64,000 nt of DNA from Elusimicrobiota bacterium (GTDB lineage: Bacteria > Elusimicrobiota > Elusimicrobia > UBA1565 > UBA9628): assembly GCA_023249675.1 (NCBI GenBank), contig JAHFCE010000012.1, positions 1 to 64,000 of the forward strand, read 5' to 3'. Positions 1-6,994 of this stretch are shown here, piece by piece. How positions within the stretch are numbered: position 1 is the stretch's first letter; every line of letters begins with the position of its first letter. Made by a program: the position numbers and the translations under genes. Under the pieces are notes generated by a model that was not told the origin of the DNA, made no database searches, and saw nothing but the letters and a program-made list of their open reading frames with translations.

Positions 1-835
1 CGAGGCGCGAATCGATCTCCACGCCGAGTTGGGAGCGGAATTGCAACCGCTTCTCGGTGATGAGGGAGTCGATGAGGCTCGATAGGAGTTGGGCGGAGCC
101 GGGCTCTGCCGGGGCCTCGTGTTCCACTGACGCCTGGCCGCCTGCGCCCCGCGTCGCCGCCCTGTTCTTTTCGATCAGGTTGTTGGCGATGTCCCGGATG
201 CGCCCGACGGCGCTGCGGACCAAAACCCGTTTCTCTTCCGGGAGTTGCGAGAGGTCCTTCAGAACGGAGTCGAGAGCGGCCAGCGGGGACCGGATATCAT
301 GCGCGACTTGAGCGGCTAGAGAAGCTTGGGAATCTTTGAGCTCATATTTGAGGCGAAGTTCGTATTCGCGCGCGAGCCTCGTATTTTCATGACGGGCCAC
401 GGGGATGGAGATGATGATGAGTACCAGCCAGATCGCTATGGCGGTGGGAGTCGAGGTCCATCTGGAATAGTAGAAAAGAAGCTGCCCCGCCAGACGGGTG
501 GACTGCTCATCGAAATAAATGGGAACGGCGGCCGTGCGATAGAGCAGGATATTCTGTGGTCCAAGGTCGGTCGGCACTGAAAACAGCGTGTTGCCATTCT
601 TGGGAACCCACACTGCTCCTCGGAAATCGCGAGATATCGGCGCGGACATTTGCGTCGAAACTGACCGGATATCGCCGGCGATGAGAGGCTCTCTCAGAGC
701 TTCCGTCAGTTGCCCGGCCAAGCGATTCTTGAAATGGCCCGTGAACGTCACCGTCAGCCCGACGAGGGCAGCGAGGGTGAGCAGCTGAAAGACCAAGAAC
801 TTACGAAGAAGATTGTTGAGTGGCGGAGCTTTCAT
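1..835 (-). CDS. Sensor histidine kinase (N-terminal part, cut by window edge)
   Basis: A membrane-bound sensor kinase of a two-component system. Translating the minus strand from the ATG at 835 gives 278 codons that run off the window start. Residues about 10-33 are a transmembrane helix, 34-128 an extracytoplasmic sensor domain I cannot assign, and 129-148 a second helix. A charged helical linker (150-175) follows, then the HisKA phospho-acceptor box with His179 in the sequence VAHDIRSPLAAL. The ATP-binding domain lies outside the window. The start is 2 bases beyond the YcaO stop codon, so it is the fourth gene of the peptide-SBP-YcaO operon and probably translationally coupled. It is the likely signal-output component. 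No cognate regulator is visible here; it may lie beyond the edge. Confidence 0.9.
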   Translation of the reverse strand, partial: MKAPPLNNLLRKFLVFQLLTLAALVGLTVTFTGHFKNRLAGQLTEALREPLIAGDIRSVSTQMSAPISRDFRGAVWVPKNGNTLFSVPTDLGPQNILLYRTAAVPIYFDEQSTRLAGQLLFYYSRWTSTPTAIAIWLVLIIISIPVARHENTRLAREYELRLKYELKDSQASLAAQVAHDIRSPLAALDSVLKDLSQLPEEKRVLVRSAVGRIRDIANNLIEKNRAATRGAGGQASVEHEAPAEPGSAQLLSSLIDSLITEKRLQFRSQLGVEIDSRL

Positions 836-837
836 GT

Positions 838-1824
838 TCATCCGTAGAAGTGAGGGACCGGCGCAAGAGTCCCGAGAGGTCGTCCATTGAAGCGTTCAAG
901 CCGGCGTAGCGATGGCTGATCCAGGGGAGCCGACCCGAATTGCGGACGTATGAGTTGCTCGGATTGGGCCTGGACTACCACAAGGGGAAGGTCCGGCAGG
1001 ATGGCGTCGAGGCTTTCTATTCTGCGGAACCGCACGTTTGAGATCGAGACATCTTCCGGTTCCCAGGATCCGCTGTTGCCCGTCGGCGGCGCGAAAAGCG
1101 TCTGTTGGACATAGTCCAGGCTCTCGGCGGTCTTGGCCATCCAGAAATGCCAGAGTGGATCGCCTCTCGCCGCGAGCGCCGCCAGGTCTTCTTCCTGATG
1201 GATTCCGTCGGCGAATATGGCCGTGGCCGAACGAAGGCACTCGAGCATCGCGTGTAGCGCGGCTGTTTCCGTCGAAGCGCCGCTTCCGAATCCTGCGACG
1301 AATCCTGGAACGGTGCTATGCGAATCTTCGCTCCAGCAGAAAGCGACGCATGCTCGCGCGTCTCGCGTCGGGCGCATTTCGCGGACATGCAACGATAGGG
1401 CGTGTTTCCTCAGCATCCGGCCCAAAGCGCTCAGGGTGTTTCGCGCAATAATTGATTCCAGGGGAACCGGGCGCAAATAAATCCCGCAAAAGTGATGGCA
1501 AAGCGCGCGGTCAATGCCGAGAAGTTCAAGGTAGGCATGGCGGGATGCCTGATCCATGTCAAGATGCGCGGCGGTCGCCCATGGTTCATCAAGATCCGAT
1601 ACGGCGGCACGTTCCATTGCTTCGGAGACAGCCTTCGTGAATGCGGCGGATTCATCGCGGTCCATACCCTGCCCGACATGTCTTATGCCGCGAAGGGGGA
1701 TGGATACCCGGTAATCGAAGTAGCCTGGAAGCCATTCTTCCGGCCACGTCACGCGGACGACGTCCAGGTTGAGGCGGCTGGCGTTGGCGAGAGCCCAGGC
1801 CGTTAGGGGTGTTCCAGTCGCCAT
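838..1824 (-). CDS. YcaO-domain protein (putative peptide-modifying ATP-dependent cyclodehydratase/thioamidase family)
   Basis: YcaO enzymes use ATP to activate a peptide amide bond and form azolines, thioamides or related backbone changes. This 328-residue protein shows the family layout: a glycine-rich segment with SEAMER at 67-72, and a second conserved helix (GSGASTE then LECLRS, 181-199). Both supply acidic ATP/Mg ligands in characterised members. The C-terminus ends APVPHFYG, a short version of the proline-rich tail needed for catalysis in azoline-forming YcaOs. I chose the ATG at 1824, which overlaps the upstream SBP gene by 22 bases; longer frames upstream only shadow that gene. The neighbours are a Ser/Thr/Cys-rich exported peptide, an oligopeptide-binding protein and a histidine kinase. 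No E1-like or TfuA partner is visible. The family call is fairly sure; the exact chemistry is unknown. Confidence 0.8.
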   Translation of the reverse strand: MATGTPLTAWALANASRLNLDVVRVTWPEEWLPGYFDYRVSIPLRGIRHVGQGMDRDESAAFTKAVSEAMERAAVSDLDEPWATAAHLDMDQASRHAYLELLGIDRALCHHFCGIYLRPVPLESIIARNTLSALGRMLRKHALSLHVREMRPTRDARACVAFCWSEDSHSTVPGFVAGFGSGASTETAALHAMLECLRSATAIFADGIHQEEDLAALAARGDPLWHFWMAKTAESLDYVQQTLFAPPTGNSGSWEPEDVSISNVRFRRIESLDAILPDLPLVVVQAQSEQLIRPQFGSAPLDQPSLRRLERFNGRPLGTLAPVPHFYG

Positions 1825-3368
1825 AGCGTGTCGCCTGCGTGCATTTTCGACAGATGCGGTGCCCAGGGTTTGCGGATGATAGTCGCATAGGGCGAGAAGG
1901 CGATGGGTATCACATAGGCGTCGCGCAGGGTCTGGTAGTGGAGGTTTCGCAGCATCGGGATGCGTTGCGACTTGTCGGGCACTTCCATGTACCGACTCAG
2001 CCATTCCAAGGCTTTTTTGTCTCGCAAGCTGAAGAAGTCCGTGTGGGAGTGGTAGGAAAGAAGCCCGATGTCCTCCAGGAAACTCATGTCGGTTCTCGTG
2101 AGAAAGACATCGGGCTCATCAAGACCTTCTTTCTTGTAATCGACCAGTCCCGGGACCTTTCGAATGTACTGGATATGAGAGTTAGGAAAAGCCTTATGCA
2201 CTTCGAGATCATCACCGTTGAAACTCTTGATGATGTTCCAAATTGAAAGCGGTTCCGTGACGACCTGATCTCCGCGCGAGCCTTCCCATTCTTGCGTCAA
2301 TGTTTTTACCTGCTCGGACGTTAGAGCGCCCTCCCCTGAAAAGGGGAATATCTGGTTCGCGGCTTCGAATCCCTCCCTACCGGCATGTTGCTTTAGAAAT
2401 AGTCTCTTGAGCGTCATCCCGATGGCGATTCGTTGATTGCGATCGAGGCGCTTCATCCCTTTTTGAGTGAAAATCACCCCATAAAAGCAGATCGGTAGGG
2501 TCGTATGCAGGGTTACGTCTGGATGCGCGGCGGCGTATTCAATCTTGTCTTCCTGCGGAGCGGCATCCACCTCGGTCACCACGTCCACGGTCCCCTCCGA
2601 CATTAGCTGTAGCGATGACTTCTTGCTATTGAGGGGGACGGGGCGGAGGATCAGCTTTTGCGGCATCTTAGGCGAATAGTGGAAGTGGTTTGGATTTGCC
2701 GAAAGCTCGATCTCCCCCCGGGAGCTATCTTTTTCCACGTAATAGGGGCCCGAGGTGTTCCGGTAGTCGTTGATGGCGAGTGTCTGGGGGTCAAGCGCGT
2801 TCAGGGGAATGACGGCAAAGTCGATCGATGTGAGCATTGGGAAGAAGAACGGCATCGGCTTCTCAAAAAGGATGGAGAGAACCCGGCCGTTCTCTCGCAC
2901 CTGCATCCCTGGGCATGGGTCAGCCAGCGTCTTGAGCGATTGGCCTGGGCACAGCATCGAAGCTAGGTTCCCGTGAGTGTTCCCGCCGAGGATGAGGGCG
3001 CGCTTGAACATGACTTCCGCGTCATAAGCATCGATGGCGTGGCCATCAATGGTCTTGAGATTCTCGCGGATGGTAAAGCGAGCCTCGTTGCCGGTCCATT
3101 CAAAGCGCTCGGCGATCGCCGAGACCAGATGACCATCAGCGGAATGTTCCATGAGCGGCGAGTAGACGTTGGCCAAGAAGACGTATTCGTGGGCCAGATG
3201 GATCCTCATGGGATCATAGGACGACGCGGAACTGGCATACGGGAATGCGATGGAGAGTTTCGACTTGAGCTGAAGCTGTTTCATTTGTTTTTGGCTGATC
3301 ACGAACCCGGCGATCGCGCCGAGGAGCGCGAGAATAATGGCAATCCCCCGACTCGTGGCGGTCGTCAT
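1803..3368 (-). CDS. Membrane-anchored oligopeptide-binding protein (SBP_bac_5 family)
   Basis: This 521-residue protein has the fold of the OppA/DppA extracytoplasmic solute-binding proteins. The recognisable N-terminal block is IHLAHEYVFLANVYSPLMEH, followed by the typical region about a developing lobe and inserted helices. An N-terminal hydrophobic helix (about residues 5-24) has no lipobox cysteine, so it looks like an uncleaved membrane anchor or a Sec signal. No ABC permease or ATPase gene is present, so a sensing or chaperoning role for the peptide encoded upstream is as plausible as uptake. The ATG at 3368 was preferred over an in-frame TTG at 3389. The only G-rich Shine-Dalgarno-like stretch (3382-3387) is buried in the stem of the hairpin at 3379-3414. 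It overlaps the start of the YcaO gene. Confidence 0.85.
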   Translation of the reverse strand: MTTATSRGIAIILALLGAIAGFVISQKQMKQLQLKSKLSIAFPYASSASSYDPMRIHLAHEYVFLANVYSPLMEHSADGHLVSAIAERFEWTGNEARFTIRENLKTIDGHAIDAYDAEVMFKRALILGGNTHGNLASMLCPGQSLKTLADPCPGMQVRENGRVLSILFEKPMPFFFPMLTSIDFAVIPLNALDPQTLAINDYRNTSGPYYVEKDSSRGEIELSANPNHFHYSPKMPQKLILRPVPLNSKKSSLQLMSEGTVDVVTEVDAAPQEDKIEYAAAHPDVTLHTTLPICFYGVIFTQKGMKRLDRNQRIAIGMTLKRLFLKQHAGREGFEAANQIFPFSGEGALTSEQVKTLTQEWEGSRGDQVVTEPLSIWNIIKSFNGDDLEVHKAFPNSHIQYIRKVPGLVDYKKEGLDEPDVFLTRTDMSFLEDIGLLSYHSHTDFFSLRDKKALEWLSRYMEVPDKSQRIPMLRNLHYQTLRDAYVIPIAFSPYATIIRKPWAPHLSKMHAGDTLWRLEHP

Positions 3369-3378
3369 ATTTTGCGTA

Positions 3379-3414
3379 ACGCCCCCCAAGCCCGCTGCCG
3401 GGCTTGGGGGGCGT
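3379..3414 (-). terminator. Perfect 16-bp stem-loop between peptide gene and SBP gene
   Basis: Bases 3379-3394 are exactly complementary to 3399-3414 with a 4-base loop, giving a very GC-rich hairpin. No T-run follows on the minus strand, so it is not a classical full terminator. Its 3' arm contains the G-run that could serve as the ribosome site of the SBP gene. A leaky terminator, an mRNA-stabilising end for the peptide transcript, or translational control of the downstream genes are all possible. A REP-like palindrome is the alternative. Confidence 0.6.
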
Positions 3415-3420
3415 GAGCAA

Positions 3421-3940
3421 GTCCCCTGTTCAGCGTAAGACCATGCGGTTCAGTCTACCGCCAAGAAAGTTAGGAATTAAGCAACAGACGAGTTCGGGGT
3501 CGTCCTCCCCGTGCAGATCGAGCCAATGAGTACCGGGGTCGTCTGAACCTTGACGACTTTGTTAAGGTTGGCGCGGAATGTCGTCCCGCCCTTCAGGTGC
3601 GCCCAGGCGCTGGCGGCAAGAATCAAGGTCCCGGCCAGCAGGACGGCAATCTTATTCTTCTTCATTTCGCATTTCTCCCCGAATCCTCGCGTCATTGTAC
3701 CAAACGAAAAAGCAGAGACTACGGCGCATTTATTGTAGTCCACATACAACTTCTACGTCAGGGTCCTTAGCCCTGCCGGTATCCGGGCCCCGAGACCTAT
3801 GTCCCCAAGGCCCCGACTCAACAAACGATAGTGCCGTTGTTTTGGATTGCACCGACACCCACTTCGGAGCAATTTTCATGCTGAAGGGTGCAATGCATCC
3901 CGCATGGCGGCCGCAAATATAGAAAACCTGTCCCCTGTTC
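3421..3940. repeat. Direct repeat of 11 bp flanking the peptide gene
   Basis: The sequence gtcccctgttc occurs at 3421-3431 and again at 3930-3940 in the same orientation. The copies bracket the small peptide gene and its promoter, about 500 bases apart. They could be remnants of a mobile or REP-like element or simple coincidence. Confidence 0.4.
3477..3665 (-). CDS. Small exported Ser/Thr/Cys-rich peptide (putative YcaO substrate or signalling peptide)
   Basis: A 62-residue peptide that starts at the ATG at 3665. It is preceded by GGGGAG 9 bases upstream and a TACAAT -10 box at 3694-3699. Residues 1-22 form a textbook Sec signal: KKNK, then a hydrophobic run, with a cleavage motif AWA before His23. 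The predicted mature 40-mer is basic in its first half. Its last 21 residues hold five Thr, three Ser and the only Cys (TTPVLIGSICTGRTTPNSS). Thr, Ser and Cys are the residues YcaO enzymes cyclise. The gene is first in the operon and is followed by a strong hairpin, as in many peptide-precursor genes. I recognise no family. A simple secreted protein unrelated to YcaO remains possible. Confidence 0.7.
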   Translation of the reverse strand: MKKNKIAVLLAGTLILAASAWAHLKGGTTFRANLNKVVKVQTTPVLIGSICTGRTTPNSSVA

Positions 3941-4052
3941 GGGCAGGACATCTCAAGGACAGCGGGGTTGAAGATGGGATACTGGTAGGCGAGGCCGTTC
4001 TTCTGGGCACGGCCGATGGCCAGGTCTCAGTCTGAGGAATGACCGGATAAAA
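3666..4052. promoter_or_regulatory. Intergenic region upstream of the peptide operon
   Basis: This 387-base stretch holds the candidate peptide promoter: TACAAT on the minus strand at 3694-3699, and a second TACAAT further up with a CTGACG-like -35 at 18 bp. It also has an 8-bp inverted repeat at 3846-3853 / 3887-3894 and one copy of an 11-bp direct repeat (3930-3940). A minus-strand frame around 3950-4035 reads GLAYQYPIFNPAVLEMSCP, which looks protein-like and may be a gene remnant. I see no convincing intact gene. Confidence 0.5.
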
Positions 4053-4718
4053 CTAGCTGTTGCCGGTGGCGGCGTTCCCGGTCGGGGGGAGGGTGGCGGC
4101 TTCGCCCGCGAACAGGGACAACTCAGCTTTGAACTTCTCGGCGGCTCTCTCGTTGGTGATGAGATGGGCGGTCCCGTTTTCGAGAACGGCCGCGGCGCGA
4201 AGCGTGGCGGTCTTGTCGGTGAGATAGGCCTCGACCACTGTATTGTGCTTTACCATGATGAGAATATCTCTAGAATCCACGTCGAGAGGAAGCCCGAAGT
4301 AATGAATTCCATCGGTCGAATCGCTTTTTGCGAGCTTCAAGGGCATGTCCTTGGTTCCGTCGCAGAGATCCAAAACCTTGCAAATTCGAGCGGTGACCGT
4401 TCCCGTACCTTGGATACTGCGGGTGTATTTGATCAGGCGCGCCATGAGTTCCTCGGTCATCACCGGGTCGGGTTTAGGCGGCGGGTTGTCGGAAGAGGCG
4501 ATCACGACAGGAGGAACGGCGACGGGTGTCGATGCCGAGGCGGGCGCCCAGCCGGCGGCGTTGAGGCCGTTCATGGCATTCTGCAGGGCTTTTTGGGCGG
4601 CCAGCGGATCGACGGCGGCCGCGAAAGTGGCGCTGCTGCGAATGGGGGCCACGCTCGAGGCGAGCATGGCCGAGAGGTAGGCTGAGGTTAGGATCGTAGC
4701 GAGACGTCGGGACTTCAT
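4053..4718 (-). CDS. Secreted hypothetical protein
   Basis: A 221-residue protein of unknown function. Residues 1 to about 35 resemble a signal peptide, followed by an Ala/Pro-rich linker (to about 85) and a compact domain of about 130 residues with two cysteines (ARICKVLDLCDG) that could form a disulphide outside the cytoplasm. It ends in an Ala/Thr/Gly-rich tail. The start is supported by AAGGAG at 4728-4733, 9 bases before the ATG, and a TAGAAT -10 box at 4758-4763, so this gene has a leader, unlike many in the window. It stands alone between the peptide operon and a divergent kinase gene. I recognise no family. Confidence 0.8.
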   Translation of the reverse strand: MKSRRLATILTSAYLSAMLASSVAPIRSSATFAAAVDPLAAQKALQNAMNGLNAAGWAPASASTPVAVPPVVIASSDNPPPKPDPVMTEELMARLIKYTRSIQGTGTVTARICKVLDLCDGTKDMPLKLAKSDSTDGIHYFGLPLDVDSRDILIMVKHNTVVEAYLTDKTATLRAAAVLENGTAHLITNERAAEKFKAELSLFAGEAATLPPTGNAATGNS

Positions 4719-4903: not shown

Positions 4904-4918
4904 TCGATGCCCTTCAAT

Positions 4919-6994
4919 ATGCGCCACCTCTCCGTTCTCTTTTTCCTGTCGGTCATCTTTTTCGCGAGACCGCTTCATGCATTCCAGCCAGCCAGTAATG
5001 AGGCGGTGGGGGATATTCCGACCGAGGCGCCTGCCGACCAGCCTGTGCCGCCGGTCAGAGAAGACCAGGCGGGGGCGGATAGGCGGGCCGGGAGGGGACG
5101 TACCGTTCCCGACGTGGGGAGAAGGGCTGTGAAGCCTCGTCCTGTTGTCCCGCCGGCCGAAGAGACGGAGAGCGGCGACACGGCCGACATCGATCCCAAG
5201 GATGAAGCGAAGCCGGTCGCGCGGACGCCGGGCCGGACGGAGCCGGTGTCGCGGGCTCCGGCGTCGGTTGAGGAGAAGCGCGAGATTGATCGGCTCGAAC
5301 AGTCCGGCGATCTCGCCGCCGCGCGCAAGATGGCGGTGGAGACGCTCGAGCGGCATCCCGAAGATAAGGACCTGCTCGCGTTCGTGAAGATGACCGCACC
5401 CGTGAAGGCCGCGGTGGACGCAAAGACGGTGAAGGCCCGCGCGGCGGAGCTCGCGGCGGGCATGCGCCAGGATGAGGGCTCGGGCGGGGCGATACTCGCG
5501 TCTCCCATTTCCTTCGGCGCTTTGGCGGGAGCGCGCGGTTCGGCGGCGCCGCCCGCCGGGCTCGGGGGCGCGGTTCCCGATATGCGCGGCGCGGCGGTTC
5601 TGCGCGACGCGTCGGGCAAGATCGCGATCAAGGACTATGCCGGGGCCGAGTGGGCTTTGATGCGGCGCATCGAGGAGGCGCCGAATGACGGCGCGGCCCT
5701 CCGCCTGCGCGCGCTGGCGCGGCGCTTTCTCAACCACTACGCCGACTCGGCCGATGACGCCAAGCGCGCTCTCGCGCTCGATGGGCGCGATGCGCGCTCG
5801 CTGCATCTGCTCTCCCGCGATTTGACCGACCTCGGCCGGCCGAGGGAGGCCCTCGCGGAGGCCGACCGGGCGCTGGCCCTCGACAACAAGGACGCGCAGG
5901 CCTATGTCGCGCGCGCCGCCGCGTTCGGCGCGCTGGGGCGGGGCGAGGAGGAGCTGGCCGATCTCGCGCGCGCCGCTTCGCTTGACTCGCAGTTCGACTC
6001 CCTCTATCACGACACGCTCGCCGTCCGCGGAGGGGGCGCTGTCGCCGCGAAGAGCGCGCGCTCGTGGCCCGTGTGGCTGGGCGCCATCGGCACGGCGTTG
6101 TTGTTCTTCTCGTTCGCGCTGTTCCGCAAGCGCGGCGACTCGTCGGTGCGCATGGCCCTGCGGCAGGAGGATCACGACGAGTTGGTGTCCGCGGCGCCCC
6201 GCGTGGGCGCGGTGCCGAAGGGCTTTCGCGTCGTGAAGATCCTGGGCCAGGGCGGGATGGGCGTTGTCTATGAGGCCGTGGACTTGGCCCTGCAGAGGAC
6301 CGTGGCGCTCAAGAAGCTGCGGCCGGAAGTCGCCGACAATCTGCGCGAGAGGACCCGCTTCTTAAAGGAGGCCCGCACCGTCGCCGGGCTCAAGCATCCC
6401 AACATCGTGGAAATCCATGCGATCCACGAGGACGCGGAGGGGCTCTTTCTTGTGTTTGAGCGCGTGCCCGGAGAAAGCCTGCATGAGCGCCTGGGGCGCG
6501 GGCCCGTGGCCCCCGCCGAGGCCGCCGCGTTCTTGAAGCAGATCGCGGCCGCGCTCGACTACGCGCACGCCCAGGGCGTCGTGCACCAGGACCTCAAGCC
6601 CGGCAACGTGATGATCCACGCGGGCCTGGCCAAGGTCATGGACTTCGGCATCGCGCGGCGCGTGCTGGAAACGCTGTCGACGATGTCGAAGGTCGAGGTC
6701 TCCGGAACCCCGGCGTACATGTCGCCCGAGCAGGAGCAGTGCATCGTGACGCCATCGGCGGATATTTACGCGCTCGGCGTGTGCGCCTACGAGAGCCTGA
6801 CCGGGGTCCTGCCCTTTCCGACGGGGGGCCTGATGCTCAAGGCGCAGAAGATGTACCGCAGGCCCTCCGAAGCGATGCCGGCCCTGAAGTCCGGCGTGGA
6901 TGCGGCCATCGGCCGCGCGCTCGAGCCGCGGCCTGAGGACCGCTGGCCCTCGGCGTCGTCCTTCGTGGACGCCCTCGCCCGAGCCCTGTCGTAG
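4919..6994 (+). CDS. Transmembrane Ser/Thr protein kinase with extracytoplasmic TPR region
   Basis: A 691-residue Hanks-type kinase in an inverted order. It has a signal peptide (1-21), a disordered Pro/Glu-rich stretch (to about 115), TPR-like helical repeats (about 115-160 and 235-365), one transmembrane helix (383-402), then the kinase domain (436-690) at the C-terminus. Visible motifs are the glycine loop GQGGMGVV (443-450), VALKK with Lys465, the catalytic loop HQDLKPGN (Asp558) and DFG (575-577). HQD replaces the usual HRD, so the activation-loop arginine is lost while the catalytic Asp remains. The topology suggests that TPRs outside the membrane sense a partner and the kinase signals inside. 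The start at 4919 was chosen from the promoter position and the signal peptide. Confidence 0.9.
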   Translation: MRHLSVLFFLSVIFFARPLHAFQPASNEAVGDIPTEAPADQPVPPVREDQAGADRRAGRGRTVPDVGRRAVKPRPVVPPAEETESGDTADIDPKDEAKPVARTPGRTEPVSRAPASVEEKREIDRLEQSGDLAAARKMAVETLERHPEDKDLLAFVKMTAPVKAAVDAKTVKARAAELAAGMRQDEGSGGAILASPISFGALAGARGSAAPPAGLGGAVPDMRGAAVLRDASGKIAIKDYAGAEWALMRRIEEAPNDGAALRLRALARRFLNHYADSADDAKRALALDGRDARSLHLLSRDLTDLGRPREALAEADRALALDNKDAQAYVARAAAFGALGRGEEELADLARAASLDSQFDSLYHDTLAVRGGGAVAAKSARSWPVWLGAIGTALLFFSFALFRKRGDSSVRMALRQEDHDELVSAAPRVGAVPKGFRVVKILGQGGMGVVYEAVDLALQRTVALKKLRPEVADNLRERTRFLKEARTVAGLKHPNIVEIHAIHEDAEGLFLVFERVPGESLHERLGRGPVAPAEAAAFLKQIAAALDYAHAQGVVHQDLKPGNVMIHAGLAKVMDFGIARRVLETLSTMSKVEVSGTPAYMSPEQEQCIVTPSADIYALGVCAYESLTGVLPFPTGGLMLKAQKMYRRPSEAMPALKSGVDAAIGRALEPRPEDRWPSASSFVDALARALS

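Follow-up and report, generated by a model that had tools for sequence, protein, structure and literature searches.

A possible signalling operon of Elusimicrobiota joining an exported peptide, a YcaO-type enzyme, an anchored binding protein and a histidine kinase

Family-5 solute-binding proteins (SBPs) read peptide pheromones in several bacteria, as PrgZ does with cCF10 in Enterococcus and as the streptococcal Ami/Opp systems do with the short hydrophobic peptides (SHPs) and ComS, and the chitin-oligosaccharide-binding protein of Vibrio belongs to the same family. The SHPs are exported via PptAB (PMC7564271). SBP-dependent three-component systems have also been described, such as CuaD-CuaSR of Ruminiclostridium cellulolyticum (PMC10384115) and the chitin-oligosaccharide-binding protein with ChiS in Vibrio (PMC10667598, PMC7564644). 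Then, could an SBP of this kind serve a peptide that is encoded, and perhaps modified, by its own operon? Here, we describe such a candidate in a stretch of 64,000 nucleotides (nt) from an Elusimicrobiota bacterium, called the window below. It is a minus-strand operon at the edge of a contig (G000:C41, where G000 is the window genome), which encodes a small exported peptide, an SBP, a divergent YcaO enzyme and a histidine kinase. We propose that the peptide may be a Sec-exported signal, modified by the YcaO maturase and sensed through the SBP and the kinase. We give this a probability of roughly 45%, because the ligand, the chemistry and the relay are inferred. The features are as follows.

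3867..3881 (core pattern), minus strand: promoter-like box GCATGAAAATTGCTC within CAGCATGAAAATTGCT, with sigma54 -24/-12 spacing, some 200 nt ahead of the gene for the peptide.
3477..3665, minus strand: predicted exported peptide of 62 amino acids (aa), a hydrophobic signal segment followed by a tail ending VQTTPVLIGSICTGRTTPNSSVA; it has an ortholog in Elusimicrobia bacterium GWA2_66_18 and homologues at the same place in 8/8 genomes with a type-A YcaO.
1803..3368, minus strand: N-terminally anchored SBP_bac_5 protein (oligopeptide-binding type), 521 aa; Pfam PF00496, 43.1 bits against a cut-off of 32.4.
838..1824, minus strand: divergent type-A YcaO, 328 aa, assigned by Pfam, an ortholog and an AlphaFold model.
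2..841, minus strand: first 280 residues of a histidine kinase (HisKA), whose remainder lies on contig C52.

The sequence-only reading of this DNA had described four genes running in one direction, and all are present on the minus strand at window 1-3665. The 22-nt overlap of the SBP and YcaO genes is as it stated, whereas the 2-nt gap between the YcaO and kinase genes exists from the second kinase ATG and turns into a 4-nt overlap (ATGA) from the first.

In the scheme that we propose, a short peptide would be produced with a Sec-type signal segment, and the YcaO would act on the C-terminal part of this peptide in the cytoplasm, with cyclodehydration of Cys, Thr or Ser as the likeliest change. 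The modified peptide would leave via the Sec system and be caught outside the inner membrane by the anchored SBP_bac_5 protein, which, when occupied, would contact the outer domain of the kinase. The kinase would signal to the sigma54-type response regulator of the system, and the regulator, together with a dedicated second sigma54, would fire the promoters with the CAGCATRAAAATTGCT box, that is, those of the peptide-SBP-YcaO-kinase operon and of a linked biosynthetic operon for ribosomally synthesized and post-translationally modified peptides (RiPPs).

Among known sensing schemes, CuaD-CuaSR (SBP, kinase and regulator) is the closest. There, as with ChiS, the SBP is encoded beside or acts on a sensor histidine kinase that works with a response regulator. 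Both of these systems sense sugars, whereas the Elusimicrobiota operon has a built-in exported-peptide gene, a RiPP-type maturase and an SBP of the oligopeptide type. The likeness to the pheromone systems lies in an oligopeptide-binding protein that captures exported short peptides; however, in those systems the SBP serves an importer and the peptide works intracellularly, while in the Elusimicrobiota operon no permease was seen and a kinase is adjacent.

The conservation of the module was assessed with a profile built from four type-A YcaOs, which was run over 341 Elusimicrobiota genomes. A type-A YcaO was found in 8 of them, belonging to three families, and in 8/8 a homologous exported peptide is followed by an SBP and then by the YcaO. 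The SBPs of the other seven genomes are 39-89% identical to the window SBP. The kinase comes next in 7/7 loci that reach it (the contig of G273 stops first). Accordingly, the co-occurrence in related genomes that the sequence-only reading had called for is found, and no locus with YcaO, SBP and kinase that lacks the peptide, which that reading named as a refuting case, was among the loci seen. The closest of these genomes is that of GWA2_66_18 (G018, locus L004), the sole close relative matched in the scan of genome_contigs, whose YcaO is 92% identical to that of the window. Most of the assemblies are drafts, and several loci stop at contig ends. The neighbouring genes were identified mainly by BLAST with few queries, and the absence of a permease or a maturase here means that none was recognised. 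Errors in the binning of metagenome-assembled genomes are still possible, and the same gene order in several genomes argues against them.

The maturase varies among loci. A second YcaO type occurs in the order peptide-SBP-YcaO-kinase in G010, G003 and G011, and a third one in the order peptide-YcaO-SBP-kinase in G275 (L151, 3.1e-7). Radical SAM enzymes replace the maturase in G013, G014 and G216, and a second radical SAM type takes that role in many f15 genomes (a family-level group). In the radical-SAM-B loci, the third gene has no Pfam match and is called an SBP only from one weak BLAST match of a homologue. At seven further SBP loci no homologue of YcaO or radical SAM was detected; the kinase is present in 7/7 and an exported peptide lies upstream in 6/7. 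Exported peptides precede SBP-kinase pairs without YcaO in G095, at the second G263 locus and in G306, G301, G335 and G336. The constant core of the system is thus peptide, SBP and kinase, and the maturase is swappable: elsewhere its place is taken by another YcaO type or by radical SAM, or no maturase is recognised. The link between peptide and YcaO, on which the sequence-only reading had built, is real (8/8) yet modular, because comparable exported peptides also precede YcaO-free or radical-SAM SBP-kinase pairs. Immediately ahead of one SBP-kinase pair with no recognised maturase (G301:C31, L228, 315-1265), we also observed a tandem array of three exported peptides with a high content of Gly, Thr and Pro.

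The 62-residue peptide with its Sec-type signal, called from a short open reading frame (ORF) by the sequence-only reading, is confirmed as a gene by an ortholog in GWA2_66_18 that is 82% identical and by a dN/dS of 0.29 between the two (13.5 synonymous and 12.5 nonsynonymous changes); judged by these substitutions, it evolves as a real coding gene. The corresponding values are 0.16 for the SBP, 0.16 for the YcaO and 0.29 for the kinase part. To score such peptides, we used a rule of 40-90 aa, a ribosome-binding site, a charged start and a hydrophobic stretch, at most 350 nt upstream. ORFs that fit it lie ahead of 9/9 SBP genes of the system and of 3/114 other genes at twelve loci (Fisher p 2e-11), a generous value because the rule was set after the peptides were seen and the loci are related.

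From the N-terminal part to the tail, the pairwise identity of the eight YcaO-A peptides is 0.38, 0.38 and 0.29; the signal segment and an FQxKLxK-like stretch are conserved across them. In the eleven radical-SAM-B peptides it is 0.62 in the N-terminal part, then 0.38, and 0.13 in the hypervariable tail. The leader/core shape of RiPP precursors therefore appears clear in the radical-SAM-B peptides and weak in the YcaO-A peptides, as far as the alignments tell. The Thr/Ser/Cys tail that the sequence-only reading tentatively linked to the YcaO is not a conserved trait: the tails vary, 3 of the 8 YcaO-A peptides have no Cys, and that argument is weak. Clusters for linear azol(in)e-containing peptides (thiazole/oxazole-modified microcins, TOMMs) are recognised by a cyclodehydratase partner of the YcaO (E1-like or ocin-ThiF) and by a precursor with a leader and a Cys/Ser/Thr-rich core; among the YcaO-A peptides no such core was found, and one of two alignments has no column made up of Cys, Ser and Thr throughout. 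An invariant Cys/Thr near position 51 was present in one alignment and is not claimed, because it was lost under a second setting.

The window YcaO scores 24.0 bits against Pfam PF02624, slightly under the cut-off of 25.7, and its ortholog in G166 scores 28.5 bits, over the same cut-off. An AlphaFold model built with eleven relatives has a full-length YcaO fold with a pLDDT of 89, while with four rows the model was poor (pLDDT 48), and a sequence search of the PDB with four type-A rows gave chance matches only. The assignment holds despite the sub-cut-off score, because the ortholog passes and the fold is full-length. The nearest structures to the model (VIA Z) are LynD (21.9), MusD (7u58; 20.8), McbD (19.5), a methanogen YcaO (18.7) and E. 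coli YcaO (15.8). At the C-terminus, the tail that ends PVPHFYG aligns with those of LynD, MusD, McbD and TruD and not with those of the methanogen or E. coli YcaO. The modelled fold is nearest to heterocyclases that form azolines and points to the cyclodehydratase/peptidase branch. Like the azoline-forming cyclodehydratases LynD, TruD and McbD, the window YcaO has the full-length fold, motif 1 (ExxER) and the aligning tail PVPHFYG, and E68, E71 and R72 of this motif are invariant in 11 sequences. It differs from them in its size of 328 aa, in an altered motif 2 and in the lack of an E1-like partner found in the window genome, and its putative precursor has a Sec signal segment and no fixed Cys/Ser/Thr pattern.

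Several observations weigh against the scheme proposed above. Motif 2 reads EL[LV][GCS]ID in 8/8 type-A YcaOs, compared with the canonical ELIERD (ELVERD in TruD); a straight alignment leaves ExxERD without its second acid and its Arg, while a register shifted to the conserved IDR would keep both. In the window genome no E1-like cyclodehydratase partner was found beyond a MoeB-like match, homologues of one E1 being sought. No residue pattern in the YcaO-A tails is robust to the alignment method. Cleavage of the signal and export of the peptide are predicted from its sequence. Finally, modification does not seem essential to the core, because loci with no recognised maturase exist.

Two other explanations draw on these points. 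In the first, the type-A YcaO is not a cyclodehydratase; instead, it either trims the peptide as an ATP-dependent, MusD-type peptidase or has degenerated in its catalysis and just binds peptides. The position of MusD among the nearest folds (Z 20.8) and the altered motif 2 are consistent with it; however, LynD scores slightly higher, the C-terminal tail does not set MusD apart from LynD, McbD and TruD, with all of which it aligns, the dN/dS of 0.16 speaks against decay of the YcaO, and motif 2 is canonical in the type-B YcaO, which occupies the corresponding position. We regard this as the least probable of the alternatives considered here. In the second, the peptide is an unmodified periplasmic accessory protein, a regulator or stabiliser of the SBP-kinase pair, while the SBP responds to peptides that are nutrients or of foreign origin and the YcaO has some other substrate. 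This would fit the seven SBP-kinase loci with no recognised maturase, six of which have an exported peptide, as well as the YcaO-A tails with no fixed modifiable residue, and nutrient-sensing SBP-kinase pairs such as CuaD-CuaSR are known (PMC10384115). Nevertheless, two maturase families (three YcaO types and at least two of radical SAM) lie inside the operon, beside or between the peptide, SBP and kinase genes, and the radical-SAM-B peptides show a conserved leader with a hypervariable tail. It is unlikely in our view, though the strongest competitor of the modified-signal scheme.

On the sensing side of that scheme, the structures nearest to the SBP are those of OppA and MppA (OppA in the PDB, E 1e-6), and an alternative start of its gene is an upstream TTG at 3389. 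The kinase part in the window matches HisKA at 20.8 bits, under the Pfam cut-off of 26.9, and HATPase_c is present in the ortholog of GWA2_66_18. Contig C52 opens with 24 nt that exactly match, as the reverse complement, the 24 nt at the start of the window, and the kinase runs on there; the joined protein has 642 aa and a receiver-like C-terminal part, and shares 83% identity with the GWA2_66_18 kinase. The SBP gene is linked to the kinase with no permease of its own, as the SBP, YcaO and kinase genes overlap and the kinase comes next in all loci that are long enough. The sequence-only reading had likewise noted the lack of an ABC permease, and none was recognised in the operon, where the loci were checked by eye and profile-library scans covered part of the neighbouring genes. 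In GWA2_66_18, an alpha/beta hydrolase gene (Abhydrolase_1, proline-iminopeptidase-like by eye; L004 8909-9799) overlaps the end of the kinase gene; its product is a possible peptide-processing enzyme, and in the window genome it is not adjacent.

The regulatory part of the scheme starts from the promoter-like box. Six genomes hold 2-5 copies each of the pattern GYATNNAAATTGNTY, and the reversed control has 0. The window genome has it only at the window box and at C52:3791, ahead of the linked biosynthetic operon, and between both boxes C52 encodes a response regulator of the sigma54 type as well as a second sigma54-like protein, which is the shorter one. Genes with the sigma54 DNA-binding domain number two each in the window genome, GWA2_66_18 and G013, and one in G095. 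The linked operon (L094, G000:C52, 3901-7372) encodes a B12 radical SAM enzyme, a 47-aa ORF at 5951-6094 (MNPSLPKNKTKLYLNKDELLAKLAAGPASVNNGDKPNRNTVFVAIGM) and a transporter of the major facilitator superfamily (MFS); the first of these is a RiPP-maturation methyltransferase by its score of 659.8 bits against a cut-off of 281.85. In GWA2_66_18, G013, G066, G014 and G010, the linked operon contains instead an E1-like enzyme, an MFS-like protein and a spermidine-synthase-like protein, and in GWA2_66_18 the E1-like homologue adjoins the peptide operon. A strict pairing of YcaO and E1 was dropped, with E1 occurring beside radical SAM in G013 and G014, and YcaO occurring without E1 in the window genome.

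One or two ORFs of 17 codons with strong ribosome-binding sites (e.g., MKLIKTEAARLDIIKGV and MKLKKLAVVALNDIKMI) lie directly ahead of the E1-like gene in five genomes (L004 245-430 in GWA2_66_18, and L068, L069, L070 and L071 in G013, G066, G014 and G010, respectively). They are possible minimal RiPP precursors. The E1-like enzyme of GWA2_66_18 and its relatives, whose PDB matches include MccB and PaaA, together with the very short peptides and the MFS-like protein, resembles the microcin C (MccB) and pantocin (PaaA) systems. However, the 17-aa peptides end in Val or Ile and not in Asn, unlike microcin C, and a search of the window genome did not turn up the E1-like module. In G010, the gene for the E1-like enzyme is split over two frames (L071 8973-10053). 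Downstream of the second sigma54 gene there is a conserved stretch (L068 12060-12400, L071 13500-13800, L036 4200-4500), with a box in front in G013 and G010 and no Rfam match, which is possibly a structured RNA. At L096 (G014:C20, around 5000-5701, minus strand), a box lies ahead of a pair of related small ORFs, whose middle parts are rich in DGKDGKD and whose tails read [ST]xPIVFEL, and an ABC-transporter-like gene follows further downstream of both.

Could the peptide rather be an antimicrobial RiPP, with the SBP and the kinase acting as an autoinduction or immunity sensor as in nisin-type regulation, and not a communication signal? The operon linked by the same box in the window genome, with its RiPP-maturation methyltransferase, 47-aa ORF and MFS transporter, would suit such a role, as would the E1-like enzyme, 17-aa peptides and MFS-like protein of the relatives. 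On the other hand, the operon has no recognised gene for a dedicated exporter, for a protease or for immunity, a bacteriocin precursor that uses Sec would be unusual, and the peptide is always partnered with an SBP. We consider this explanation quite unlikely.

Most of the operons related to that of the window follow an aptamer of the 2'-deoxyguanosine-II (2'-dG-II) class (RF03165), which was found upstream in G018, G013, G010, G003, G011, G216, G263, G264, G272 and G166. RF03165 is present in 77 of 295 Elusimicrobiota genomes, with up to 9 copies each. Among 60 downstream loci, at least 13 have a small exported peptide and a recognised kinase within the displayed part of the locus, several more have a peptide with a radical SAM enzyme or an SBP, and the remaining ones precede other, often exported, proteins. 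The aptamer often lies ahead of exported proteins of 200-350 aa (e.g., L132-L191), some with a VDFDGG-like start. In window 3600-4060 there was no match to RF03165 even at E 5, nor was there one anywhere in the window genome, and the 173-nt leader of the window operon folds no better than shuffled sequences (z -0.34), so a riboswitch there was rejected. The relatives thus share with the known 2'-dG-II regulon the aptamer upstream of their operons, whereas exported-peptide/SBP/kinase operons are not among the downstream genes named in one published account, and the window operon has no aptamer.

Ahead of the window operon lie genes for a secreted protein of 221 aa (4053-4718, minus strand) and a TPR-Ser/Thr-kinase-like protein (4907-6994, plus strand), and neither is found beside the module in the relatives. 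Carriage of the operon on plasmids was also considered, and a PLSDB search gave no match. In literature searches that left out most subscription journals, no paper was found that joins Elusimicrobia with YcaO, or that unites YcaO, Sec, signal peptide, precursor peptide and leader peptide.

Taken more broadly, the loci may represent an undescribed family of peptide-communication systems in Elusimicrobiota, with Sec-exported peptides of a leader and a variable tail, RiPP maturases that can be exchanged for one another (YcaO in three types, radical SAM in two or more, or no maturase at all), cognate anchored SBP_bac_5 proteins, kinases, a sigma54 regulator (with its own sigma54 in one genus) and, in many genomes, gating by a 2'-deoxyguanosine riboswitch. 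This wider proposal is tentative, and we hold the odds to be somewhat against it. If the proposal is true, modified peptides would serve as signals in a phylum for which hardly any genetics exists, and RiPP enzymes, peptide-binding proteins and two-component signalling would be joined in one operon. The family would exchange its modifying enzymes around a constant sensor, and its pairs of variable peptide and cognate SBP would let specificity be read and tested. The 2'-dG-II riboswitches, in turn, gain a class of downstream genes absent from that published account, which bears on what this RNA senses and why.

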